A stretch of DNA of 64,000 nt from a virus. The notes under the pieces are model-generated. The model ran no database searches. It was not told the DNA's origin and saw only the letters and a list, made by a program, of their open reading frames with translations. Below, one piece after another: positions 3,001-60,145 of the stretch. The stretch lies in IMG/VR virus record IMGVR_UViG_3300046804_003469, positions 124,001 to 188,000 of that record. One strand, 5' to 3'. Both the position numbers and the translations under genes were made by a program. How positions within the stretch are numbered: position 1 is the stretch's first letter; every line of letters starts with the position of its first letter.

Positions 3001-6000
3001 TCTACAATTTATTTTTCAAATCCAGGAATTGGACCAAGATTTATAACAATTCCAACTAAAACAATATACTTACCAAATCATCAACTTAATACTGGATCTG
3101 AATTAATTTATTCATCTAATGGTGGAAGTCCAATATCAATTTCCACAGATGGTTATACTTCTACATCTTTACCTGATAATTCAGTAGTTTATGTAGCAAA
3201 AATAACTGATAATTTAATTGGCATATCCACAGTTTTGGTTGGGTTAGACACTACTGGTAATTTTTCTGGAATTGGAACAAATTCTTCAATAAGTACTCTA
3301 TATTTCACGAATAAGGGATCTGGAAATTATCATAGTTTTAAAACAAATTATCAAGATACACTAGTTGGAGATTTAAGTAGAAATACTGTAACTGTATTTA
3401 CAAAACAAAATCATAATTTACAATTAAATGATAATGTAATTATTGATATTTCATCTGGTATAACAACAGTGGTTAATGTTCAATATAATGATTATAATAG
3501 AAGATTAGTAGTTAATTCAAAAAACTTTAGTGAATCTGATGTAGATATATTGAAAAATACCATTAGAATTCCAAATCACAATTTCCAAGAAGGTCAAAAA
3601 GTAATCTATAAGTCTACAGCTTCAGGTATAGAGACAATATATTATGTTATTATTGTAGACTCTAATAGAATTAAACTTTCAAATAGTTATTATGAAGCAA
3701 CATTATCAAATCCAATAGAAGTTAATATTGGATTTGCTAAAACTTCTGGTTCATTATTACCTATTAATCCTCCAATTGAATTATATAAAAATAGTATAGT
3801 AAAATTTGATCTATCAGATTCTTCATTATCTTATAGTAAAAATTTCACTTCATATCCTGCTTTCCATTTCGATTTTTATAAGGATCCAGATTTTAAATAC
3901 AAATATGAAATTTCTGAAGGATCTTTATCTTATGAAGTGTATAGAATTGGAAAAATTGGTATTGATAGCACTGCCGCTGTTTATTTGACAATTACCGATA
4001 ACACTCCACAAAATTTATACTATAGATTAGAACCAATAGATCCAGTTAATAATTTACCAGAGAAATTAAGTATCATTGTAGATGATGATCAAGTAATTAA
4101 TCACAACAAATTATATTTTGTCGATAGTAAGTATAATGGAACTCATACAATAAGTGGAATTGGATCAACTTCATTTACATTTTCATTATTGGATACTCCA
4201 GAGAAAAATAGTTATTATCCATATGAAGGTGATTTAAATTATTACACAAATTCTTCAACTGCTTCTGGAGAAATATATGAATTAAAATTAACTTCTAAGG
4301 GTAGAAGTTATAACAATGTTCCAGATATAGTTGGTGTTGTTACAAATACTGGTAACTCTGCTATTCTCGAATGTCAAACTAACAGTATTGGTAAAATTCT
4401 TAATACTACAATTAAAGACATTGGATTTGATTATTCATCAGATTTATCTTTAAGACCATCTGCTAAACTACCTAGTTTAGTTAAATTGCAATCTTTATAT
4501 TCATTAGATTATATTGGTATTACTTCTTCTGGAAGAAATTATGTTACTCCTCCAGATTTACTTTTATTTGATGGTTATACTCAAAAAATAGTAACAGATG
4601 TTGATTTAAGATATGTCAAAAATAGAAATCGTGTAACAATTTTAAAGAATACTACTTCTCTTTATAATTCTATTCCAACAATTTTGCCAATTAATAATTC
4701 AAATGGAATAAAAATTAAATCAATCACTTACGAACCAACAACTGGAATTGCATCAGTAACTCTTGCCCCAAGTTACAGTGATAGAGATGTTTTTCCTTTT
4801 GAAGTTGGTGATAATGTTATGATTGAACATACTAGTGTAGGAATTGCTACTACTGGTAAAGGATATAATACTGAAGATTATAATTATCAGTTCTTCGAAA
4901 TTGTATCCATGGATCCAAATATTGGAGGAGCCAATGGAAGTGTAAGATTTAGTTTAAATGGATTATTGTCACCAGGAGAATATCCTGGAACATATGATTC
5001 TGATAATTCATTGGGTACAATTGTTCCCGAAAAATTCTTCCCAATATTTAAACCAGTATTAAAGAAAAATAATTTCTTTGTTGGTGAAACTGTAATTTCA
5101 AAATCATCCCAAACTACTGGTGTTGTTGATAGTTGGAATACTAATAGTAATTATCTTAAAGTATTAGAAGATAGAACAAAGTTTAATGTTGGTGAAACTA
5201 TTGTTGGAAAATCATCCAAAACGCAAGGAGTTATTTCAGATATAATAAGATTTGATGCTGTTTATGATGTTAATGGATCATCAATAGTCAGAAAAGGATG
5301 GAATCTTGATACTGGATTTTTAAATGAACATTCTCAAAGATTGCATGATAGTGATTATTATCAAAATTTCTCATATTCTTTAAAATCAAAAGTACCTTAT
5401 GATGTTTGGAACACATCCGTTTCTGTTCTCAATCATACCGCTGGATTTAAAAGATTTTCTGATTTAATTATAGAATCAGTTCCTATTCCAAAATCTAGCA
5501 ATATTGTTGGAATAGGAACTACAGTTAATGTTGGAGTTGGAACTGTACGAGATGATATTGTTGGAATGCAGACATCACAAAATAATGGAGACTTTAGTAG
5601 TAGAGTTGATATTATTGAATATGTTGATACAAATACAATTTATGATTTTGACCTAGTTAAGGAAAGAACTATTTCAAATAGATCAAATAATCTCGTTTTT
5701 AATTCTAGAGTTATACAGGATTATATTGAATCTGTAGGAAATAGAGTACTTATTCTTGATGATTTAAGTCCTAGTTTTAATAGCAATCCAAGACCTACAA
5801 TATTCACTCCAGTAGATCAATTTAATTTAAATTATTATAGATCTAAAAAATATTTTGCTTTAGTTCAGGATAGAGCAAATATTAATGGAAGACAGGCAAA
5901 CTTGGTAACATTAGTGCAAAATGGAAAATATGGATTTATAAGTCAATATGGTATTTTAAATACTATTTCTCAACTTGGATATTATGATTTTTCAATCTCT

Positions 6001-32202: not shown

Positions 32203-33879
32203 ATGGCAAAACTGTTTGGTTTTTCAATTAATGATGATAACAAATTGCCCGCTAGTGCGGTCTCTCCCGTTCCTCCGAATACGGATGACGGGGCTGACTT
32301 TTACCTCACTAGCGGGTTTTTTGGATCTTATGTAGACCTTGAAGGAATTTATAGAACTGAATTTGATTTAATTAAAAGATATCGTGAGATGGCACTTCAC
32401 CCAGAATGTGATGGTGCTATTGAAGATATTGTAAATGAAGCAATTGTTTCGGATACAAATGATGTTCCTGTTGAAATTGAATTATCAAACTTAAACGCCA
32501 GTGATGGTATAAAAAATAAAATAAGACAAGAATTTAGATATATTTTAGATCTTTTAGATTTTGATAAAAAATGTCATGAAATTTATAGAAATTGGTATGT
32601 TGATGGAAGAATTCACTACCATAAGATTATCGATTTAAAAAGACCTCAGGATGGCATACAAGAATTAAGATATATTGATGCCATGAAAATTAGGTATGTT
32701 AGACAAACCAAAAAGGAAAAGAAAGATCAATATAGATTATCCAATATGAATCAGGATAATCCCATGCAATATGAGTTTCCTGAAATTGAGGAGTATTTTC
32801 TTTATACTCCTCAAGCAACATATCCATCTTCAAATCCTTCAGCATTAGGAGATCAAAAAGGAATTAAGATTGCAAAAGATGCAATTACTTATTGCACTTC
32901 AGGACTTGTTGATAGAAATAAAGGATCCGTTCTTTCATATCTACATAAAGCAATTAAAGCACTCAATCAACTTCGTATGATTGAGGATAGTCTTGTTATT
33001 TACAGACTTTCTCGTGCTCCAGAAAGAAGAATTTTCTATATTGATGTAGGAAATCTTCCAAAAGTTAAAGCAGAACAATATCTTCGTGATGTTATGATGC
33101 GTTATCGTAACAAACTGGTATATGATGCAAATACTGGTGAAATTCGTGATGATCGCAAATTTATGTCTATGATGGAAGATTTTTGGCTTCCAAGAAGAGA
33201 AGGTGGTAGAGGAACTGAAATTACCACTCTTCCTGGTGGACAAAATCTTGGAGAAATTACAGATATTAAATATTTCCAAGAAAAACTTTACAGATCTTTA
33301 AGTGTTCCACCTTCAAGAATTAGTGGAGATACTGGATTCAATCTTGGCAGATCTTCTGAAATCTTAAGAGATGAATTAAAGTTCACTAAATTTGTTGGTC
33401 GTCTCAGAAAAAGATTTTCAAACATGTTTAACGACATGTTAAAGACACAATTGATTTTAAAGAATATTATTACCCCAGAAGATTGGGAAGTAATGTCACA
33501 ACATATACAATATGATTTCCTTTATGACAATCATTTCTCGGAATTAAAAGAAGCCGAACTCTTAACTGAAAGATTAAATCTTCTTGTGACTGCAGAGCCT
33601 TATGTTGGTAAATATTTCTCCAAAGATTATGTAAGAAGAAAAATTCTTCGTCAAACTGATGAAGAAATCATTGAACAAGATAAAATTATTAATAAAGAAA
33701 TTAAAGATGGTATTATTCCAGATCCAAATGCACCAATAGATCCAAATACTGGAATGCCAATGCAAGATACTGCTGGAATGAATCTTGGTCAACCAGTCAT
33801 GGAACCAGATATTCAAAAACAAGCAGATTCTGCAGTTGGAGTAAAGTCAGATTCTACTGCGCAAAAAGCAAATAAATAA
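32203..33879 (+). CDS. gp20: portal vertex protein gp20
   Basis: A homologue of T4 gp20, the dodecameric portal that nucleates the prohead and serves as DNA channel. Conserved segments include EYDLIKRYREMALHPE-like text (about residues 50-70), GAIEDIVNEAIV, RAPERRIFYIDVGNLPK and ITTLPGGQNLGEI. 558 residues against 524 in T4. The coding DNA at 32247-32322 folds into a nested hairpin followed by six T, listed separately. Its 12-copy stoichiometry contrasts with the abundant gp18 and gp19 just upstream. Confidence 0.96.
   Translation: MAKLFGFSINDDNKLPASAVSPVPPNTDDGADFYLTSGFFGSYVDLEGIYRTEFDLIKRYREMALHPECDGAIEDIVNEAIVSDTNDVPVEIELSNLNASDGIKNKIRQEFRYILDLLDFDKKCHEIYRNWYVDGRIHYHKIIDLKRPQDGIQELRYIDAMKIRYVRQTKKEKKDQYRLSNMNQDNPMQYEFPEIEEYFLYTPQATYPSSNPSALGDQKGIKIAKDAITYCTSGLVDRNKGSVLSYLHKAIKALNQLRMIEDSLVIYRLSRAPERRIFYIDVGNLPKVKAEQYLRDVMMRYRNKLVYDANTGEIRDDRKFMSMMEDFWLPRREGGRGTEITTLPGGQNLGEITDIKYFQEKLYRSLSVPPSRISGDTGFNLGRSSEILRDELKFTKFVGRLRKRFSNMFNDMLKTQLILKNIITPEDWEVMSQHIQYDFLYDNHFSELKEAELLTERLNLLVTAEPYVGKYFSKDYVRRKILRQTDEEIIEQDKIINKEIKDGIIPDPNAPIDPNTGMPMQDTAGMNLGQPVMEPDIQKQADSAVGVKSDSTAQKANK
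32247..32322 (+). terminator. nested terminator-like hairpin inside the gp20 5' coding region
   Basis: The outer arms 32248-32261 and 32303-32316 pair at 13 of 14 positions, including an uninterrupted 10-bp block CCCGCTAGTG / CACTAGCGGG. Inside, CCCGT (32266-32270) pairs with ACGGG (32288-32292) and TCCG (32274) with CGGA (32282). The 3' arm is followed directly by TTTTTT (32317-32322). I count 43 G+C in 70 bases (32247-32316), far above the surrounding DNA. The form is that of an intrinsic terminator or attenuator; activity is inferred. Confidence 0.6.
33871..33878 (+). promoter_or_regulatory. candidate late promoter
   Basis: AATAAATA overlaps the gp20 stop codon, 26 bases before the gp67-like start. 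Confidence 0.45.
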
Positions 33880-40460: not shown

Positions 40461-40894
40461 GTATTGATCTTGATACTATTCAAAAAATGTGGGAAAAAGA
40501 TTCCCAAATTGATCCAGATAATTTACACACAGAATCTTTAAATATTCCAGTTTTACACGCAAAATATTTTGATTTGTATAATACACTGGTTCTTTTGAGA
40601 AAGAGAGCAGAACAACAAAGAAAAAATATTCGCCATGAAAGATATGAATATTATACAGGAAAAGCAGATCCAGAAGTTTATGTAGAAGATCCTTTTCCTA
40701 AAAAAATTAGAGATAAAGATACACTTCAAAAATATCTTGATGCAGATAATAAATTATCTCAGGTTAATCTTAAAATAGAGTATTATGAAACTATGATAAA
40801 TTACTTAGAGAGTATTCTTAAAGTAATTCAAAATAGAACTTACCAAATTAAGAATGCTGTTGAATTCATTAAATTCCAGGCAGGATATGGTTGA
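40457..40894 (+). CDS. uvsY: recombination mediator UvsY
   Basis: Loads the UvsX recombinase onto gp32-covered single strands. 145 residues against 137 in T4. The middle HERYEYYTGKADPEVY aligns with T4 ALKARLDYYSGRGDGDEF and the C-terminal part IKNAVEFIKFQAG with IKHIQDMRAFEAG. Largely helical. It overlaps gp3 (ATGA) and uvsW (8 bases). Confidence 0.92.
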   Translation: MSIDLDTIQKMWEKDSQIDPDNLHTESLNIPVLHAKYFDLYNTLVLLRKRAEQQRKNIRHERYEYYTGKADPEVYVEDPFPKKIRDKDTLQKYLDADNKLSQVNLKIEYYETMINYLESILKVIQNRTYQIKNAVEFIKFQAGYG

Positions 40895-42856: not shown

Positions 42857-42901
42857 TCCTACATTATAAATTAAATAATATAGATGATCACAACAACAGT
42901 T

Positions 42902-43378
42902 ATGACCAAAAGAAAGAGGTCAGAGCATTACGTCAACAACAAAGAGTTTTTAGCAGCACTTATTGCTTATCGTGAAAGTGTTGATCTTGCTGCCATTCGT
43001 GGAGAACCAAAACCACGTATTACAAATTATATTGGTGAATGCTTTCTTAAGATTGCAACACATCTTTCCTTTAAACCAAATTTTGTGAATTACATGTTTA
43101 AGGAAGATATGATTTGTGATGGTATTGAAAATTGTATCCAATACATTCATAATTTTAATCCAGAGAAATCTCAGAATCCCTTTGCTTACTTTACTCAAAT
43201 TATCAACTATGCTTTTTTGAGAAGAATTCAAAAAGAGAAAAAGCAATTAGAAATCAAAAATAAAATTCTTGAAAGAACTGGATTTGATCAGGTCTTTGAT
43301 GACTCATCGGTTGACGGATCTAACTATTCAGATTATAATTCAATCAAGGATGCCATCTATTCTAAACTTCGGTACTGA
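42902..43378 (+). CDS. gp55: late-transcription sigma factor gp55
   Basis: A highly diverged sigma70-family factor that directs host RNA polymerase to TATAAATA-type late promoters. RSEHYVNNKEFLAALIAY and NPFAYFTQIINYAFLRRIQKEKKQ (region 2-like helix) match the T4-like family. I favour ATG 42902 (MTKRKRSEHYV), 158 residues; ATG 42884 would add six residues. A sigma70-type promoter precedes it. gp47 starts directly after its stop. Confidence 0.9.
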   Translation: MTKRKRSEHYVNNKEFLAALIAYRESVDLAAIRGEPKPRITNYIGECFLKIATHLSFKPNFVNYMFKEDMICDGIENCIQYIHNFNPEKSQNPFAYFTQIINYAFLRRIQKEKKQLEIKNKILERTGFDQVFDDSSVDGSNYSDYNSIKDAIYSKLRY

Positions 43379-44689: not shown

Positions 44690-46388
44690 AAAAATTCGTT
44701 GGAAAAACTTTTTAAGCACTGGAAATCAGTTTACGGAAGTCATTCTCAACAAGACAGATAACACTCTTATTATAGGATCAAATGGTGCTGGAAAGAGTAC
44801 AATTCTTGATGCATTGACTTTTTCACTTTTTGGAAAACCTTTTCGTAAAATTAATAAACCACAACTTATAAATTCTACGAATGAAAAGGATTGTTTAGTT
44901 GAGGTTGAATTATCTATTGGTTCTACTTCTTGGAAAGTTGTGCGTGGAATTAAACCAGCAATATTTGAAATTTATAGAAATGGTAAACTTTTAGATCAAT
45001 CTGCTGCTGCTTTAGACCAACAAAAATGGTTAGAGCAAACTGTATTAAAAATGAATTACAAATCTTTCACTCAGATTGTAATTCTTGGATCAAGTACATT
45101 TGTCCCCTTTATGCAACTTCCTGCTGCTCATAGGAGAGAAGTTATTGAAGATCTTTTGGATATTAAAATATTTTCTTCAATGACTTCAATTATTAAGGAT
45201 AAAATACGTCAAATTAAAGATGATATCAAAGTTTTGAATCTTAAAAAAGATTCTTTAAAAGATAAAGTTGATATGCAACAAAATTTTATTGAAGAATTGG
45301 AAAATCGTGGAAATGCCAAAATAAATGCCAATAAAGAAAAGATTGCAAATTTAGATCAAGAAGTTGGTGTTTATATGGTGGATAACTCTGCTATTGAAGA
45401 AGGAATTTATAAACTTCAAAAAGAACAAGAGGGAGTTATTAGTTCTGTAGAAAAAATAAAAAAACTTAATAATCTTAAAGGTAAAGTATCTCAAAAAGTA
45501 GTATCAGTAACAAGAGAGCATAAGTTTTTTAAAGAAAATACGGTATGCCCTACTTGTACTCAAACAATTGAAGAAGAATTTCGGTTAAATAAAGTTGCAG
45601 ATGCTCAAAATAAAGCAAAAGAACTCCAAAAAGGTTATCAAGAACTTGAGGAGACTATAAAAAATGAACAGGAAAGAGAGCGTCAATTTATTGAACTTTC
45701 CAAAGAAATTACAAAACTAAACCATGAGATTTCGCAGAATAATACTCGCATTTCCTTCAACCAAAGACAAATTCAAGATCTTGAATCTGAAATTCAAACT
45801 ATTACCGAACAGATTAAGAATAAAAATACTGAACATGAAAAATTAGAAGAATTTAAAAAAAATCTAACGGAAACTTTTTCTGAACTAGCAGAGAAAAAAG
45901 ACAAAATTAATTATTATGATTTTTCATATAGTTTACTTAAAGATGGTGGAGTAAAAACTAAAATCATCAAGAAGTATCTACCGCTGATAAATCAGCAAGT
46001 TAATCGTTATCTTCAAATGATGGATTTTTATATCAATTTTACTCTTGATGAAGAGTTTGATGAAACTATTCAATCTCCCATTCATGAAGATTTTTCTTAT
46101 GCTTCTTTTAGTGAGGGTGAAAAAATGAGAATTGATTTGTCTCTTTTGTTTACTTGGAGAGAAGTTGCCAGATATAAAAATTCAGTAAATACGAATCTTT
46201 TAATCCTTGATGAAGTATTTGATTCTTCTTTAGATGGATTTGGTACTGATGAATTTTTAAAAATTATTCGGTATGTTATAAAAGATGCTAATATCTTTGT
46301 TATTTCGCATAAAACGGGAATGGAAGATAAATTTAGAAGTGTAGTAAAATTTGAAAAAATTAAAGGTTTTAGTAGGATGGTTTCTTAA
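44676..46388 (+). CDS. gp46: recombination nuclease subunit gp46 (SbcC/Rad50-like)
   Basis: ABC-type ATPase of the gp46-gp47 end-processing complex. Walker A GSNGAGKST at 34-42, two long coiled coils around a zinc-hook CPTC at 291-294, signature SFSEGEKMRIDLSLLF, Walker B NLLILDEVFDSSLDG, and FVISHKTG. 570 residues against 560 in T4. Starts inside the DUF3110 gene. Confidence 0.95.
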   Translation: MILFEKIRWKNFLSTGNQFTEVILNKTDNTLIIGSNGAGKSTILDALTFSLFGKPFRKINKPQLINSTNEKDCLVEVELSIGSTSWKVVRGIKPAIFEIYRNGKLLDQSAAALDQQKWLEQTVLKMNYKSFTQIVILGSSTFVPFMQLPAAHRREVIEDLLDIKIFSSMTSIIKDKIRQIKDDIKVLNLKKDSLKDKVDMQQNFIEELENRGNAKINANKEKIANLDQEVGVYMVDNSAIEEGIYKLQKEQEGVISSVEKIKKLNNLKGKVSQKVVSVTREHKFFKENTVCPTCTQTIEEEFRLNKVADAQNKAKELQKGYQELEETIKNEQERERQFIELSKEITKLNHEISQNNTRISFNQRQIQDLESEIQTITEQIKNKNTEHEKLEEFKKNLTETFSELAEKKDKINYYDFSYSLLKDGGVKTKIIKKYLPLINQQVNRYLQMMDFYINFTLDEEFDETIQSPIHEDFSYASFSEGEKMRIDLSLLFTWREVARYKNSVNTNLLILDEVFDSSLDGFGTDEFLKIIRYVIKDANIFVISHKTGMEDKFRSVVKFEKIKGFSRMVS

Positions 46389-46577
46389 GTGGCACATGAA
46401 GAAGATTGGGCAGATCGTTTGGTAAATAGGATATGGGACTTCATAGATAGGATCTGTTACCCTGATGGCAAACCACAAGATCTGGGAAAGTGGTCGCAAT
46501 CCTCACAGGAGGAACGACAAGGGGAAAAAGAAACCCCAAGCACTCCGACAAGCAAAAGCACGACTGAACCACTTTAA
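46389..46577 (+). CDS. hypothetical small protein (GTG start)
   Basis: 62 residues from GTG 46389, directly after the gp46 stop, with AGGA about 11 bases upstream. The first 35 residues (EEDWADRLVNRIWDFIDRIC) look protein-like; the last 25 are Ser/Thr/Glu rich. It ends just before an intrinsic terminator. A second frame, 46465-46650, overlaps it and encodes a basic peptide; only one of the two may be real. No function recognised. Confidence 0.4.
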   Translation: MAHEEDWADRLVNRIWDFIDRICYPDGKPQDLGKWSQSSQEERQGEKETPSTPTSKSTTEPL

Positions 46578-46590
46578 AAAGTGTCACAAG

Positions 46591-46619
46591 ACCTCCCCCA
46601 AAAAGGGAGGTTCTTCTTT
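46591..46619 (+). terminator. intrinsic terminator after the gp46 operon
   Basis: ACCTCCC / GGGAGGT form a 7-bp stem with a C/A loop, followed by TTCTTCTTT. It separates the recombination operon from the CobT-like gene. Confidence 0.8.
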
Positions 46620-46646
46620 ATTGTACGTTCATACGATTCAAATCAA

Positions 46647-48797
46647 ATGACCGTCCGCCACGAAATCAAGTCTCAACTCGCCAAACTTCTTGCTACTGAA
46701 GACCTTGTGGTTGAGCACAAGAAAGTAGAGACCGCTTGCTTCAACGTCCATACTCGTGTGCTGACTCTTCCAATGTGGGAGAAGGCAAGCAACACCGTCT
46801 ATGACCTGCTGGTTGGTCACGAAGTTGGTCACGCTCTTTATACTCCAGATGAAGATTGGTTGAAAGAATATAAGATTCCACCTCAGTTTGTGAATGTGGT
46901 GGAGGATGCTCGTATTGAGAAACTGATGAAGCGTCGTTATGCTGGTCTGGCGAAGACTTTCTTCAACGGATACAAGGAACTTGCCGACGATGATTTCTTT
47001 CAAATCAAAGACGACAACCTGGAAACTTATAATCTTGCCGACCGTGCAAACCTGTGGTTCAAGATTGGTAATTATACTCAGGTGCCGATTGAGCATGGTG
47101 AAGAGACTGATATTATCAATCTGATTGCCGAAACTGAAACTTTTGCCGATGTGCTGATTGCCGCAGAGGCACTCTACAAGTATTGTAAGCACAAGCAAGA
47201 AGAAGAAACAAAGACTTCTCTGGATAATCTTGAGTCCCAACAGAGTGGTTCTAATCAACCTGCTTCTGACTTTAGTGATCAACAAGAAGGTGAAAACGAT
47301 CAACCAGAATCTGGTGCTAGTGATGGTTCTTCTTCTGATGAATCTACTCAACAACCTACTCAACAAACTCCCCAAGAAATGGGTGGTGAAAAGGATGAAG
47401 ATCCAGAAGTAAAGACGATGGATTCTCTGGAAGAGTCTCTAAAAGAACTTGTGAATAATAGCACTCCTGAAAATGTTTATTTGGAACTTCCTCAACTTGA
47501 CTTAAAAAAAGTCATTGTTCCAAATGATATTATTCATTCTAAGTGTGAACAAGAATGGGATAACTATATTCAAGTGCGAGAATGTACATATGATCAAATT
47601 TTTGGTGTAGTTGATAAGTCATTTATCGAGTTCAAGCGTTCTGCTCAGAAAGAAGTCAACTATCTGGTGAAAGAGTTTGAGTGTCGCAAGGCAGCAGATT
47701 CCTATGCCCGTGCATCAACTGCCCGTACTGGTGTTCTGGACTGCTCCAAACTTCATACCTACAAGTACAACGAAGACCTGTTTAAAAAAGTCACTACTTT
47801 TGCCGATGGTAAAAATCATGGTCTAGTGTTTGTTCTGGATTGGTCTGGATCTATGAATGAGGTGATGTTGGATACTGTCAAGCAACTCTTCAATCTTGTA
47901 TGGTTCTGTAAGAAAGTTGCAATTCCGTTTGAGGTTTATGCTTTCACTTCGGATTATCCTTTAGTATCTTACGATGAAAATGGTCGATCTAATTTGAGGC
48001 AACTTTCTTATAAAAAACGTGATGGTTTGATTCAAGTTGGGGAATGGTTTTCTATGATGAATCTGTTGACTAGTAATACTAATAATAAAGTTCTTGATCA
48101 ACAGATGAAAAATCTCTATCGTATTGCATATTCTTTTGGTAGAAATTGTTATACTTCTTATTCAATTCCAAATGGACTTTCTCTTTCTGGAACTCCTTTG
48201 AATGAAGCAATTATTTCTCTTCATCAAATTCTCCCTAAATTTCAGAAAGAAAACAAACTTCAAAAAGTTCAGTGTGTGGTTTTAACTGATGGTGAAGCAT
48301 GTGGTATCAAATATCATCGTGAAGTAAAACGTCATTGGGAGCAAGAACCTTTTCTTGGAACTTTTCATATTGGAAGGGATGCTATTCTTCGTGACCGCAA
48401 AACGGGAAATACTTATTCTTTGGATTGTGAATGGCATCAATTTACTGATATTCTTCTTCGCAATATTCGTGATCGTTTTGTCGATATTAACTTTATCGGT
48501 ATTCGTGTTCTCGAATCCCGTGATGCTGGTAGTTTTATTCGCCGTTATTGTGGATTTTATGGTGAAGAACATGATAAAGTGATGGGTGCTTGGCGTAAAG
48601 AAAAAGCATTTTCTATTAAAAAGTCTGGATACCATACTTACTTTGGTCTTTCTGCAACTGCTCTTTCTCAAGATACTGAATTTGAAGTTGCTGAATGTGC
48701 TACTAAATCTCAAATCAAATCTGCATTTGTAAAAAGTTTAAAATCGAAAAAAATGAACAAAAAAATTCTGGGTGAGTTTGTGGAACTGGTTGCCTGA
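46647..48797 (+). CDS. CobT-like VWA protein with HExxH motif
   Basis: 716 residues from ATG 46647; frame-open sequence upstream covers the terminator and is unlikely to be translated. Residues 58-62 read HEVGH, followed at 83-92 by NVVEDARIEK, together a zincin-like metal-binding pattern. Residues about 200-265 are an acidic/Gln-Ser-rich linker. A VWA domain starts near 392 with VFVLDWSGSM (Asp398, Ser400, Ser402 of MIDAS). In cyanophages such genes are called cobT beside cobS, after the cobalt chelatase subunits. The next gene is the CobS-like ATPase, so they probably form an AAA-VWA remodelling pair. A role in cobalamin synthesis is not shown by the sequence. Confidence 0.8.
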   Translation: MTVRHEIKSQLAKLLATEDLVVEHKKVETACFNVHTRVLTLPMWEKASNTVYDLLVGHEVGHALYTPDEDWLKEYKIPPQFVNVVEDARIEKLMKRRYAGLAKTFFNGYKELADDDFFQIKDDNLETYNLADRANLWFKIGNYTQVPIEHGEETDIINLIAETETFADVLIAAEALYKYCKHKQEEETKTSLDNLESQQSGSNQPASDFSDQQEGENDQPESGASDGSSSDESTQQPTQQTPQEMGGEKDEDPEVKTMDSLEESLKELVNNSTPENVYLELPQLDLKKVIVPNDIIHSKCEQEWDNYIQVRECTYDQIFGVVDKSFIEFKRSAQKEVNYLVKEFECRKAADSYARASTARTGVLDCSKLHTYKYNEDLFKKVTTFADGKNHGLVFVLDWSGSMNEVMLDTVKQLFNLVWFCKKVAIPFEVYAFTSDYPLVSYDENGRSNLRQLSYKKRDGLIQVGEWFSMMNLLTSNTNNKVLDQQMKNLYRIAYSFGRNCYTSYSIPNGLSLSGTPLNEAIISLHQILPKFQKENKLQKVQCVVLTDGEACGIKYHREVKRHWEQEPFLGTFHIGRDAILRDRKTGNTYSLDCEWHQFTDILLRNIRDRFVDINFIGIRVLESRDAGSFIRRYCGFYGEEHDKVMGAWRKEKAFSIKKSGYHTYFGLSATALSQDTEFEVAECATKSQIKSAFVKSLKSKKMNKKILGEFVELVA

Positions 48798-48848
48798 TCC
48801 ACTTTTCAAACTGTCACAAGAGTCATCTCTATGCCCCTTGTGTGCCCC

Positions 48849-48854
48849 TATAAT
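48849..48854 (+). promoter_or_regulatory. isolated -10 hexamer before cobS-like gene
   Basis: TATAAT, 33 bases before the CobS-like ATG. No convincing -35 lies 16-18 bases upstream. A CACAAG / CTTGTG inverted repeat (48815 and 48837) is where an activator could bind. Confidence 0.3.
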
Positions 48855-48886
48855 TACTTTGTTGAAACAATTCCACTTAACTCATC

Positions 48887-49999
48887 ATGCCCCGTAAAAT
48901 TTCTGTGACTGACGACCAACTGATTACTGATCTTCGTTCTGTGTTTGGTAGTGAAGTAATTGCTGCCGATATTCGTGGATTTTGTGCCTCTCGTGGTCTT
49001 AACTATCAAACTGTGACTCGTCGCCTTGATAACTATAAGACTGGTCGTGGTCGTTGGAATCTTGAGGTAACTCAAGAACGTGTTGAAGAAATTGAACGTT
49101 CTTACCAATCTCCTGCAGTTCTTCCTGTCGTGGAACAAAACCTTATTCCTGATAAAGATGATACCTTCGTCAAGTTTGGTAATTTTAACGATATTAAAAA
49201 AATTATTCAGTCCCGTCTTTTTTATCCTACGTTTATTACGGGTCTTTCGGGTAATGGTAAAACGTTCAGTGTGGAGCAAGCATGTGCTCAATTGGGTCGG
49301 GAACTGATTCGTGTCAACATCACCATTGAGACCGATGAGGATGATCTGATTGGTGGTTTCCGTCTTGTGAATGGTGAAACTGCATGGCATAACGGTCCTG
49401 TGATTGAAGCATTAGAGCGTGGTGCAATTCTTCTTCTGGATGAGATTGATCTTGCTTCTAACAAGATTCTGTGTCTCCAATCTGTTCTTGAAGGTAAGGG
49501 CGTCTTCCTCAAAAAAATTGGTCGATTCGTGAAACCCGCTGCTGGATTCAACGTGATTGCCACTGCAAATACCAAGGGTAAGGGTTCTGATGATGGTCGT
49601 TTCATTGGCACCAACGTGCTCAACGAAGCATTCCTTGAACGCTTCCCCGTGACCTTTGAGCAGTCCTACCCTGCTCCCGCAACGGAGCAGAAGATCCTGG
49701 AAGGCATCGCTCTGGACCTTGGCGTGGAAGACCGCGACTTCTGCAAGCAATTGGTAAATTGGTCTGATATTATTAGGAAAACTTTCTATGATGGTGGTAT
49801 TGAAGAAATCATTAGCACCCGACGACTGGTTCATATCATTCGTGCATATAGTATTTTTGGTGATAAGGCAAAGGCAATCCAAGTTTGCATTAACCGCTTT
49901 GACGATGAAACCAAAACCGCATTCCTTGAACTTTATGATAAAATTGATGTCAATTTTGAACTTCCAAAAGAAGAGAGTGGCGAGACTCCTACTTTCTAA
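48887..49999 (+). CDS. cobS: CobS-like AAA+ ATPase
   Basis: 370 residues. An N-terminal helical region (1-75) contains LNYQTVTRRLDNYKTGRGRW, then a MoxR/CobS-type AAA+ core: Walker A GLSGNGKT at 119-126, a DDLIGGF segment, Walker B LLLDEID at 182-188, and a sensor-1 region VIATANTKGKG. Phage cobS is widespread in cyanomyoviruses; in bacteria CobS is an ATPase subunit of aerobic cobalt chelatase. Here it pairs with the upstream VWA protein. A stretch at 49621-49740 is 58% G+C by my count (70 of 120), unlike the rest of the gene. Confidence 0.88.
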   Translation: MPRKISVTDDQLITDLRSVFGSEVIAADIRGFCASRGLNYQTVTRRLDNYKTGRGRWNLEVTQERVEEIERSYQSPAVLPVVEQNLIPDKDDTFVKFGNFNDIKKIIQSRLFYPTFITGLSGNGKTFSVEQACAQLGRELIRVNITIETDEDDLIGGFRLVNGETAWHNGPVIEALERGAILLLDEIDLASNKILCLQSVLEGKGVFLKKIGRFVKPAAGFNVIATANTKGKGSDDGRFIGTNVLNEAFLERFPVTFEQSYPAPATEQKILEGIALDLGVEDRDFCKQLVNWSDIIRKTFYDGGIEEIISTRRLVHIIRAYSIFGDKAKAIQVCINRFDDETKTAFLELYDKIDVNFELPKEESGETPTF

Positions 50000-50020
50000 T
50001 TTCTAATAAAACTTTTTTAC

Positions 50021-50060
50021 TGAAAAGTGTTATTCGTATAAATAGTAATAGCACTTTTCA
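50021..50060 (+). promoter_or_regulatory. 14-bp hairpin with a late promoter in its loop, before the HNH gene
   Basis: Arms 50021-50034 and 50047-50060 pair over 14 bp (one G-T), with the 12-base loop 50035-50046 holding a perfect late promoter TATAAATA (50037-50044). The 3' arm ends 7 bases before the HNH start codon. No T-run follows, so it is not a terminator. Read-through mRNA would fold the hairpin beside the start codon; late mRNA would begin inside the 3' arm and could not. Confidence 0.7.
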
Positions 50061-50067
50061 CCAACTT

Positions 50068-50565
50068 ATGTCATATACAAAAGAACAAAGAATTGAGTAT
50101 AATAAAAAATACTATGAAAATAGGAGTGATGAGCAAAAAGAACTAAAACGCCTTGCTGATAGGGAATATTATTACAAAAATAAAGAAAAATGCAATAAAA
50201 GGCATTTAGAATATTATGAAACCAATAAAGAAAAACTAAAAAAACAGAATACTGAAAACAATAACAAAAGACGACAAAAACTAAAAGAGGAAGCAAAACA
50301 AAAACTTGGTGGAAAATGTGTATGGTGTGGAGCAACTGAAAACCTTGAATTTGACCATATAGACCCAGCACAAAAACAATTTACCATAAGTGCCTTTCCT
50401 TGCTCTCTTGAATTATGGTGGAAAGAGGTTGAAAAATGTCGCCTATTATGCAAAACCTGCCACAAAAAACATAGTGATGCTGAAATGGCAGCAAAACATC
50501 TTTATTGGGTAAATCTTTCTTTTGATGAACGACAAAAACTCATTCAGCAGCAACTTGACCAATAA
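50068..50565 (+). CDS. HNH endonuclease, probably free-standing homing type
   Basis: 165 residues. Residues 1-75 are a Tyr/Lys/Glu-rich helical region like the DNA-binding part of phage HNH proteins. The HNH core has CVWCG (about 92-96), NLEFDHIDP with the catalytic His, and LLCKTCHKKHSD. It lies between the cobS-like gene and the replication genes, has its own late promoter and hairpin, and is not part of any recognisable operon function, as expected for a mobile endonuclease gene. No intron boundary is visible nearby. Confidence 0.85.
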   Translation: MSYTKEQRIEYNKKYYENRSDEQKELKRLADREYYYKNKEKCNKRHLEYYETNKEKLKKQNTENNNKRRQKLKEEAKQKLGGKCVWCGATENLEFDHIDPAQKQFTISAFPCSLELWWKEVEKCRLLCKTCHKKHSDAEMAAKHLYWVNLSFDERQKLIQQQLDQ

Positions 50566-50583
50566 CCTCAATCCTGATATAAT
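50555..50583 (+). promoter_or_regulatory. sigma70-type promoter for the DUF3310-gp45 operon
   Basis: TTGACC (50555-50560), a 17-base spacer, and TATAAT (50578-50583) with an extended TGA just before the -10. It overlaps the end of the HNH gene. Predicted start about 50590, ahead of ATG 50619. Confidence 0.75.
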
Positions 50584-50584
50584 T

Positions 50585-50612
50585 GGGGGAGGTAAAAAAT
50601 ACACCTTCCCTT
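50585..50612 (+). terminator. GGGAGGT-type hairpin between HNH and DUF3310 genes
   Basis: GGGGGAGGT at 50585 and ACCTTCCC at about 50603 form a stem with one bulged base, followed by TTTT. It could end transcripts from the HNH side; the promoter start point falls inside its 5' arm, so transcripts from that promoter may escape it. Weaker than the other terminators. Confidence 0.4.
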
Positions 50613-50618
50613 TTCATT

Positions 50619-51119
50619 ATGGATAATAAAAACACTGATTACATTTCACTAAACAACCCTCAATATTTTATGGGTGGTGATGGTTGTAGTGACGATTATG
50701 CACATTTGAATTTAAGTAACTTGTATACTTATAATCTCAATAATGAAGATAAAATTGAAATTAAAAAAACTCCAGGTGAATCTTCCGCAACTATGAATGA
50801 GACTAAAAATCATCTTTGGAAATACAACGAAGACAAAATCTTGAAAGATATTCAGGATTATGTGACTAGCACTTATGGAAGTCACTATTGCGGACATCAA
50901 CAAGAATATCAAGGTGTCCAAACGATTGATTTGATGGCAGCAAAGGAACTTGCTTCAGATTTCTGTCAAGCAAATATTATTAAATACGGTTCTCGTTATG
51001 GTGATAAAGACGGACGTAGCAAGCGTGATTTGATGAAAGTCATTCACTATGCTATGCTTCTACTTCACTTCGATGGTCATTATTCACGCAAGGATAATGG
51101 TCTTACAGAATTCCGTTGA
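50619..51119 (+). CDS. DUF3310 protein (T7 gp1.7-like nucleotide kinase family)
   Basis: 166 residues from ATG 50619; in-frame codons further upstream lie in the promoter. The C-terminal part FCQANIIKYGSRYGDKDGRSKRDLMK followed by IHYAMLLLHFD is the DUF3310 pattern, a family that includes T7 gp1.7, a nucleotide kinase. Residues about 80-110 (YGSHYCGHQQEYQG) include Cys/His that could bind metal. First gene of the replication operon after its own promoter. Kinase activity is not established for this branch. Confidence 0.7.
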   Translation: MDNKNTDYISLNNPQYFMGGDGCSDDYAHLNLSNLYTYNLNNEDKIEIKKTPGESSATMNETKNHLWKYNEDKILKDIQDYVTSTYGSHYCGHQQEYQGVQTIDLMAAKELASDFCQANIIKYGSRYGDKDGRSKRDLMKVIHYAMLLLHFDGHYSRKDNGLTEFR

Positions 51120-57653: not shown

Positions 57654-60145
57654 GATTTTATACCAATGTGCAAATGATCGGGAATCAATTCCTGGTTCGT
57701 GGTTATGACAATGGAAAACATGTAATGTTTAAGGAGGAATATACTCCAACTTTATTCATTAGATCAAATAGACAATCAAAATATAAAACTCTTGATGGGG
57801 AAAATGTAGAACCAATTCAACCTGGACTAGTAAAAGATTGTCGAGAGTTTTATAAAAAATATGATGATGTCGAAGGATTCAAAATCTATGGAAATGACAA
57901 ATATGTATCTCAGTATATTTCTGACAAGTATCCAGAAGATGAAATTAAATTCGATATCAGTAAAATTAAATTAACTACAATTGATATTGAAGTTGCATCT
58001 GAAAATGGATTCCCAGATACTGAATCATGTTCAGAAGAAATTCTTACAATTACAATTCAAGACTATACAACTAAAAAGATTATTACATGGGGTGTCAAAC
58101 CATTTAATAATAAACAAGAAAATGTAACTTACATTGAATGTTCCAGTGAGCATAATTTGTTATCCAGATTTATCGATTATTGGGATGCAAATATTCCAGA
58201 AGTAATTACTGGATGGAACATTCAATTTTATGACGTTCCATATATCTGTGGTCGTCTTAATAAAGTTGTCAGTGAAAAGCAAATGAAAAGATTTTCACCT
58301 TGGGGTCTGATTACAAGAAACGAAATTTTTATCAAAGGTCGCAAAGAAATTTGTTATGATGTTGGTGGAATTACTCAGTTAGATTATCTAGATCTTTATA
58401 AGAAATTTACTTATACCAATCAGGAATCTTATCGTCTGGATCACATTGCTGAAGTGGAACTTGGGCAGAAGAAACTGGATCACTCTGAGTTTGATACGTT
58501 CAAAGATTTTTACACCAAAGGTTGGCAGAAATTTGTAGAGTACAATATTGTTGACGTAGAACTTGTTGACCGTTTGGAAGACAAGATGAAACTCATTGAA
58601 CTTGCAATTACAATGGCATATGACGCCAAGGTAAACTTTGCAGATGTTTTTTCCCAAGTTAGAATGTGGGATAGCATTATCTACAATTATCTTAAGAAAA
58701 GGAATATTGTAATTCCTCCAAAAGTAAAAACTGAAAAGGATGAAAAATATGCTGGAGCATATGTAAAAGAACCTATTCCAGGAAAATATGACTGGGTTGT
58801 ATCGTTTGACTTGAATAGTCTTTATCCGCATTTAATTATGCAATACAATATTAGTCCTGAAACTCTTTTGGAAGAAAGACATCCAACGGTAAATGTGGAT
58901 AAAATTTTAACCAAAAAAATTAACTTTGAAGATTGTAAAGATAAAGCAGTTTGTGCTAATGGTGCAATGTACCGCAAAGATGTTCGTGGATTTCTTCCAG
59001 AACTTATGGAAAAAATTTATAATGAACGTGTAATCTTTAAGAAAAAAATGATTACGGCAGAGCAAGAATATGTCAAGAAAAAAACAAAAGAATTAGAAAA
59101 AGAAATTGCTCGATGTAATAACATTCAGATGGCACGAAAGATCCAACTTAATTCTGCCTATGGTGCAATTGGTAATCAGTATTTTCGTTATTATAAACTT
59201 GAAAATGCTGAAGCAATTACGCTTTCTGGACAAGTTTCCATTCAATGGATTATGGATAAGATGAATTCTTATTTAAATAAAATTCTTAAAACTGGAGATG
59301 TAGATTATGTTATTGCTTCTGATACTGATTCTTTGTACATCAATATGGGTCCTTTGGTTGAAAGTGTATTCAAGGAAAGAGAGAAAACTACTCAAGGCAT
59401 TGTTTCATTCCTTGATAAGGTCTGTAAAATGGAATTTGAAAAGTATATTGAAAGTTCTTATCAAGAATTGGCGGATTATGTAAATGCTTATGAGCAAAAA
59501 ATGTTCATGAAGCGTGAATGTATTTCTGAACGTGGAATCTGGACTGCCAAGAAAAGATACATTTTGAGTGTATGGGATAGTGAAGGTGTTCGTTATGAAG
59601 AACCTAAACTTAAAATCAAGGGTATTGAAGCAATTAAATCTTCAACTCCTGCTCCTTGTCGTAAGATGCTCAAAGAGTCATTTAAAATTATGATGAGTGG
59701 TACTGAATCAAATATGATTGATTTTATTGAGGGGTGTCGTAAAAAATTTAAATCTCTTTCTCCAGCAGAAATCTCTTTTCCTCGTTCAGTAAATGACATT
59801 AAGAAGTATCATTCTAGTTCTACAATTTATGCACATAAAACACCAATCCAAGTAAGAGGTGCTTTATTGTTTAACTACTATGTTAAAGAAAATAAACTAA
59901 CAAATAAATATTCACTCATTCAAAACGGTGAAAAAATTAAATTTTGCTATCTTAAAAAACCAAATCCAATTCATGAAAATGTGATTTCCTTTATTCAAGA
60001 TTTTCCTAAAGAATTTGGAATTGACAAGTATGTAGATTATGACCTACAATTTGAGAAGGCATTTTTAGAACCACTTAAAACAATTCTTGATGTTATTGGG
60101 TGGAATGTAGAAAAAACTGTAAACCTTGAATCATTTTTCTTCTAA
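57650..60145 (+). CDS. gp43: DNA polymerase gp43 (family B)
   Basis: Replicative polymerase with 3'-5' proofreading. Exonuclease motif I DIEV at 112-115; polymerase motif [12 protein letters not shown] with catalytic Asp387; motif [17 protein letters not shown]; motif [10 protein letters not shown] with Asp558 and Asp560. 831 residues against 898 in T4, in one piece with no intein or split. ATGA overlap with the gene before, TAATG overlap with uvsX. Confidence 0.97.

Follow-up and report, generated by a model that had tools for sequence, protein, structure and literature searches.

The window studied here, the whole stretch of 64,000 nucleotides (nt) at positions 124001-188000 of a 215-kb virus record, contains an inverted repeat that carries a T4-type late promoter in its loop and stands directly before a gene for an HNH endonuclease. 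We regard it as likely that the corresponding RNA hairpin serves as a two-state late lock, which a mobile HNH cassette carries along at its 5′ edge. In the proposed mechanism, early and middle transcripts running from the replication genes through cobS would contain both arms of the repeat and fold into a stem, which, by ending 7 nt before the AUG, would keep the 30S ribosomal subunit off the start region. Once the late sigma factor appears, transcription would begin from the loop element TATAAATA, with a start at about position 50050, and the resulting late mRNA, devoid of the 5′ arm, would have an open leader from which the endonuclease could be made. We infer this late start, the translational repression and the late-only timing of the HNH gene from the arrangement described below.

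All parts of the element lie on the plus strand. The 5′ arm (TGAAAAGTGTTATT, 50021-50034), which would be missing from an mRNA begun at the late promoter, is followed by a loop of 12 nt (CGTATAAATAGT, 50035-50046) with the promoter octamer inside it (50037-50044), and by the 3′ arm (AATAGCACTTTTCA, 50047-50060), within which the predicted late start falls. The sequence thus confirms the description in an earlier note on this DNA, namely a 14-bp inverted repeat whose 12-base loop holds a perfect late promoter and which leaves a gap of 7 bases between the stem end (50060) and the HNH start codon (ATG at 50068). The 14 pairs comprise 13 Watson-Crick pairs and one U-G, and the computed RNA fold reaches -14.6 kcal/mol (z -6.2), a stability equaled by none of 200 shuffles. 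A search for inverted repeats whose copies are separated by no more than 60 nt gave 37 (25 of them listed), and this one ranks fifth. The octamer itself is not rare, because the 215-kb genome has 15 copies against 19 of the reversed control; the window has 3, where shuffles predict 9.7. A stem of at least 12 pairs encloses just one of those 15 copies, that of the hairpin, and the octamer is unchanged across 18 alignment rows.

In T4, the late start lies 13 nt after the first T of the motif. With this geometry assumed for TATAAATA, we computed the accessibility of the start region as the cost of freeing positions -18 to +12. For the window, opening would cost 11.1 kcal/mol in the read-through mRNA and 2.1 in the late mRNA; the corresponding values for 17 close relatives (17 of 24 loci, those with identical leaders omitted) are 13.4-21.6 and 1.0-5.5 kcal/mol. 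Structure across the predicted start beats shuffles of the flanks at p<=0.025 in 29 of 34 loci. By computation, then, a stable hairpin closes the initiation region of the read-through mRNA, and the position of the octamer in the loop, with the predicted start inside the 3′ arm, would leave the late mRNA without its 5′ partner.

The hairpin tracks the HNH gene, as the earlier note had proposed to check by comparing phages with and without the insertion. From the best 80 of 598 cobS loci, 76 had enough downstream sequence, and at this single site both occupied and unoccupied alleles occur: all 7 loci with the HNH gene behind cobS have the hairpin, which is found in none of the 69 without it. One of these 69 loci (L359) has an HNH match of 31.6% identity further downstream. 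Another (L345) shows behind cobS, at about 3129-3195, an apparent remnant of the HNH 3′ end that retains the TTGACC/TATAAT promoter, with the hairpin, the start and most of the gene gone, and looks like a decayed HNH copy. Among 59 relatives of the HNH gene in IMG/VR, all 24 close ones with a complete 5′ region have the same hairpin with TATAAATA in its loop, and a scan of viral contigs with the exact hairpin pattern returned 19 contigs, all of which belong to those 59 relatives. The C-termini of the HNH proteins (LDQPAPF, LDEQPQF and others) resemble, by eye, various native cobS C-termini, the pattern that recombination of the cassette into different cobS alleles should produce. These comparisons support a promoter-in-hairpin module that travels with the HNH cassette, and from them we infer that the HNH gene is mobile.

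Beyond the close family, the structure of the hairpin seems to be kept over evolutionary distance, and not its sequence. In a wider set of 60 HNH loci, whose contigs are partly shared with the earlier relatives, TATAAATA stands directly before the start codon in 17, and in 16 of those 17 it lies within a stem of at least 8 pairs. More distant HNH relatives, with identities of about 30-47%, carry the octamer in hairpins of seven other stem sequences, which gives, counting S-CREM2, eight stem types: TGAAAAGTGTTATT, ACAGACGTTATCA, CAGATGA, GTAGTATCTC, GGGTTACTCTTAT, TTTGTAGAT, TGGGGTTATA and AACCCCTTCT. The stem ACAGACGTTATCA also occurs as ACAGACGATATCA, a compensatory variant with T-A changed to A-T. 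The core pattern of this second stem was found in 10 contigs; in the five with an extended stem it stands before this HNH gene, and in the five without one it does not. Motif and ATG are 28-32 nt apart in 31 of the 34 loci; the remaining three have distances of 24, 38 and 41 nt. The HNH gene of S-CREM2 is absent from the annotation of its record.

These differing stems bear on an alternative that we consider unlikely, in which the palindrome is a DNA operator, bound over the late promoter by a protein, perhaps the endonuclease itself, that represses its own gene, the pairing in RNA being incidental. I-TevI is in fact autorepressed at an operator overlapping its own late promoter (PMC2988022), and the nearly unchanged arm sequences of the close family are what a protein site would produce. 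Distant relatives, however, present unrelated arm sequences in the same geometry, and the tolerated U-G pairs would be paired in the RNA but not on the other strand. A resemblance of the hairpin to the end of cobS, as an operator or homing site might show, proved no better than that of control stretches: controls equaled or beat its best ungapped similarity to the cobS 3′ region in 11 of 11 alleles (the lowest count being 9 of 48).

The same arrangement precedes endonuclease genes of other kinds. We compared genes in eight genomes, i.e., the window's own and seven isolates, those fetched whole of 12 surveyed (S-SRM01 minus its last 842 bases). Seven family searches gave 27 endonuclease genes after removal of a 65-amino-acid fragment (S-SRM01 69691), and the tested set, genes of at least 80 codons with TATAAATA 20-45 nt before the ATG, comprised 14 endonucleases and 65 others, the latter including apparent GIY-YIG genes of S-SRM01 missed by the Pfam GIY-YIG model. 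A free-energy difference (ddG) of -8 or lower across the predicted start was reached by 9 of the 14 endonuclease genes and by 7 of the 65 others (Fisher 7e-5, Mann-Whitney 3e-4), with medians of -9.1 and -3.1, respectively. The contrast holds without the window gene and its S-CREM2 homologue (7/12 endonuclease genes pass, Fisher 7e-4), without S-SRM01 (5/5 against 5/48), with any NATAAATA and one row per gene (9/17 against 21/176, Fisher 2e-4), and with the start assumed at 11, 12, 14 or 15 nt (7-9 of 14 against 7 of 65). The passing genes encode HNH or HNH_3 nucleases (DSL-LC03), an endonuclease VII type (S-SRM01 126172) and a PD-(D/E)XK enzyme (Sf-FR1, PF11645 E 7e-37). The window's genome has a second HNH gene outside the window (C1:202754-202722, minus strand, 114 amino acids, phrog_2255 E 1.4e-31), where TATAAATA lies 32 nt before the ATG and the predicted start would fall within the 5′ arm of a hairpin that follows closely on the octamer.

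A general enrichment of TATAAATA in hairpins had to be rejected. Over 2.28 Mb and at a loose threshold, 32 of 222 copies lie in hairpins, which is no commoner than the 8-18% of control octamers, and because the overall rate is no higher than that of the controls, the enrichment is specific to endonuclease genes. A rate of 41 of 98 was obtained from loci selected for their HNH gene; being circular, it was not used. With these counts, we lean, with less confidence than for the lock itself, toward a safety device that recurs in T4-like cyanophages and has been rebuilt independently for mobile endonucleases whose folds are unrelated (HNH subfamilies, the endonuclease VII type and PD-(D/E)XK). Each of these would have a stem of its own around the shared late promoter, usually with about 30 nt from motif to AUG, and the device would work by footprint occlusion without a Shine-Dalgarno sequence. 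The earlier proposal that the time-lock evolved here was in this respect too narrow, since the module is common to the cassette family and seems to have arisen repeatedly.

Several observations weigh against the lock or its recurrence. No purine-rich Shine-Dalgarno sequence was seen, by eye, between the stem and the AUG or in the 3′ arm, so the sequestration of this signal in the stem that marks the I-TevI type is missing, and for the same reason the block would fall on the 30S footprint. In the close family, 11 of 16 pairs are invariant and just one double change occurs; the covariation score was reached by 58 of 500 shuffles and is uninformative, because the stem hardly varies. The hairpins of four distant relatives, three of a single stem type (L045, L130, L134) and L053, fail to outperform shuffles at 0.05, and in L122 the octamer stands without a hairpin. 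S-SRM01 supplies 9 of the 14 endonuclease genes of the enrichment test, of which 4 pass, and genes that share a phage are not independent cases. In this phage, the hairpin before another gene of the endonuclease VII type (142306) fails the threshold with a ddG of -1.6. Moreover, hairpins had already been noticed in these genomes before the enrichment was tested, some of the genomes were chosen for an HNH relative, and the loose-threshold rate above gives the octamer no general preference for hairpins. Strong structures have a background of about one in ten, and similar hairpins also stand before some genes that encode no endonuclease, which means that endonucleases are not the sole users of the device. 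Two endonuclease genes are laid out differently: F-CphI of S-PM2 (L364) has a terminator-like hairpin whose U-run runs into TATAAATA, and the HNH gene of ACG-2014f (L080 2300-2441) lacks the octamer and has another leader hairpin, with TATAAT and a GGAG-like stretch.

The layout of F-CphI also touches a second alternative, slightly less probable than the operator, in which the octamer is an ordinary late promoter and the hairpin an element of mRNA stabilization, processing or termination that exerts no translational lock. Terminator-like hairpins do adjoin late promoters before F-CphI and at three sites of the window's genome (C1:23529, 192560 and 200816). The stem before the HNH gene, in contrast, has no U-run after it, for which reason we discarded it as a terminator candidate, and the predicted start inside the stem would leave the late mRNA without the hairpin, unlike a stabilizing leader. 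The terminator scan neither supports nor excludes a terminator here, as it was limited to loops of 3-8 nt and this loop has 12; its match in the end of cobS (49972-49997) is one of 3 in the stretch, where 2.9 are expected. Finally, a hairpin arisen by chance or left as a passive relic of insertion, to which the unremarkable rate of octamers in hairpins at the loose threshold could point, is very improbable given the z of -6.2, its retention in 24 of 24 close relatives, the other stems of distant ones and the 9 of 14 against 7 of 65.

At the three sites of the window's genome just mentioned, the terminator-like hairpins merge their U-run into TATAAATA, and the gene start follows about 27-41 nt downstream, as it also does in F-CphI. 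Such a fusion of terminator and late promoter is another way to exclude read-through, and with the recurrent device of mobile endonucleases in mind, the F-CphI type would be an alternative solution. Long hairpins whose loops contain CATAAATA or TATAAATA were also noticed before phrog_3316 and regA-like genes (L195:17307 and L190:648, S-CREM2); the hairpin of the regA-like gene of S-CREM2, which resembles the regA of the window, holds CATAAATA. Before apparent structural genes of S-PM2 (L241:6797), Sf-FR1 (L253:5896) and Syn9 (L261:13914), the loop contains GATAAATA, and in the first two a U-run follows, as in terminators with a promoter in the loop. S-SRM01 is rich in endonuclease genes: 11 are listed by family match, of which 9 have TATAAATA a short way upstream, and there are probable GIY-YIG genes besides.

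The cobS-like AAA+ ATPase gene (48887-49999, plus strand; Pfam AAA_5 E 7.9e-18) lies directly upstream of the HNH gene and is a plausible source of read-through transcripts, because no plus-strand sigma-70-like match of at least 10/12 appeared in a scan of 46300-50073. A promoter of this kind, TTGACC-17-TATAAT (50555-50583, plus strand, 11/12, with TG before the -10), overlaps the HNH 3′ end. In unoccupied alleles, cobS terminates in letters like CTTGACCAACC...TTCTGATATAATTGGGG; this segment around the cobS stop codon doubles as a sigma-70-like promoter and scores at least 10/12 in 63 of 72 alleles. When the site is occupied, the promoter segment is formed instead by the HNH 3′ end (at least 10/12 in 18 of 19 loci, the nineteenth, that of the window, being 11/12), and no comparable promoter was found in the approximately 60 nt left of the hairpin in any of the 19. 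The downstream replication genes therefore retain their promoter, and what remains for the HNH gene is the late promoter and read-through from cobS. The insertion would thus put the HNH gene ahead of the promoter that serves the following genes, in such a way that the host operon keeps this promoter and the newcomer has no strong early promoter of its own. There is precedent in T4, where the coding regions of some endonuclease genes harbor promoters for the genes that follow (PMC2988022). A search of 49900-50700 against Rfam gave one match only, to a microRNA family and below threshold (21.2 bits against a gathering score of 45).

The HNH gene itself (50068-50565, plus strand) encodes 165 amino acids and belongs by sequence to the HNH-endonuclease families of PHROG (phrog_4234, E 2.9e-18, as the best match, and phrog_3106, E 7.7e-18). 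Its protein has no Pfam match at E 0.1, and among five family members scanned only those of L045 and L047 pass the Pfam HNH cut-off. The AlphaFold model is confident, with a predicted local distance difference test (pLDDT) of 91.5 and a predicted template modeling score (pTM) of 0.63. Foldseek against the PDB found nothing significant with it (best E 0.1), and a sequence profile search of the PDB had no matches at E 0.01. The non-significant fold matches are headed by nucleases, first of all Cap5, which we take to carry an HNH domain; T4 endonuclease VII and an HNH enzyme of Geobacter rank lower. The window protein and its close relatives have a Lys at the position aligned with the Asn of L045 that we assume to be the HNH motif residue, and the activity of this branch is uncertain. 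The protein is probably a free-standing homing endonuclease.

The surroundings are those of a T4-like cyanophage. A late sigma factor gene of the T4 gp55 type (42884-43378, plus strand; phrog_234 E 2.9e-68), whose product would read TATAAATA, is accompanied by SbcD- and SbcC-like subunits, presumably equivalent to T4 gp47 and gp46, a peptidase, cobS and the HNH gene. Next come a DUF3310 protein gene (50619-51119, plus strand; PF11753 E 5.2e-9) and the genes for the sliding clamp, the clamp loader, a regA-type repressor, a UvsX-like recombinase and the replicative helicase, so the HNH gene is located among T4-type replication genes. DNA similar to the cobS-HNH-DUF3310 stretch occurs in 461 phage records, and those listed match mainly cobS.

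If the cyanophage pattern holds, silencing of the cutting enzyme until late infection would be a general requirement of mobile endonucleases, met repeatedly by convergent RNA hairpins. The series of stems, the occupied and unoccupied alleles and the available isolates (S-CREM2, S-SRM01, DSL-LC03, Sf-FR1) make the question of why late expression is selected a testable one. In these isolates, the module is located at 58536 of OR473000 (the HNH gene of S-CREM2), at 40846 in DSL-LC03, at 33079 and 126172 in S-SRM01 and at 163911 in Sf-FR1. Likewise, looking for TATAAATA inside hairpins some 30 nt upstream of an ATG may reveal unannotated endonuclease genes, as for S-CREM2.

The regulation by hairpin and late promoter is established for I-TevI and has been described for I-TevII, I-TevIII, segB and mobE of the Aeromonas phage Aeh1 (PMC2988022); the T4 reviews consulted name few examples, which come from T4 and Aeromonas phages (PMC2988022, PMC3014915). 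The late promoter of cyanophages, NATAAATA or TATAAATA, was already known as well (PMC2984593), and the psbA leader of S-PM2d has been reported to contain a 36-bp inverted repeat, with a gp55 site upstream of psbA (PMC5931967). In the literature searched, with most subscription journals outside its reach, no description of promoter-in-hairpin locks of cyanophage endonucleases was found.

Inhibitory leader hairpins are also present in the T4 genes e, soc and 49, and the late promoters of e yield an mRNA without its 5′ portion (PMC3014915), as proposed here; none of them is a mobile endonuclease gene, even though the product of gene 49 is endonuclease VII. The gene seg43(25) of Aeromonas phage 25 resembles our case in having a very stable hairpin just before the initiation site that leaves the Shine-Dalgarno sequence uncovered, but its regulation is called undetermined in the review, whose passage on it mentions no late promoter in the loop (PMC2988022). 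The gene mobE of Aeh1 encodes an HNH homing endonuclease, lies outside an intron and is regulated by a hairpin with a similar promoter arrangement (PMC2988022, PMC3014915), whereas the insert described here follows cobS and has 7 nt between stem and AUG. As in I-TevI, I-TevII, I-TevIII and segB of T4, the endonuclease gene would lie on early or middle read-through transcripts with a hairpin at its start region, and a late or middle promoter is placed so that the late mRNA lacks part of that hairpin (PMC2988022). Unlike that group, the cyanophage gene is a free-standing HNH with the promoter in the loop, no Shine-Dalgarno sequence in the stem and a stem that differs between subfamilies. The I-TevI-like switch proposed in the earlier note is thus favored by the linkage to the insertion, the differing stems, the recurrence before unrelated endonucleases and the late sigma factor gene, and it falls short in the Shine-Dalgarno sequence, because of which the element is not a strict member of the I-TevI type. 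With a mechanism known from T4 and Aeh1 and a promoter known from cyanophages, it is a variant that would work like the I-TevI lock.
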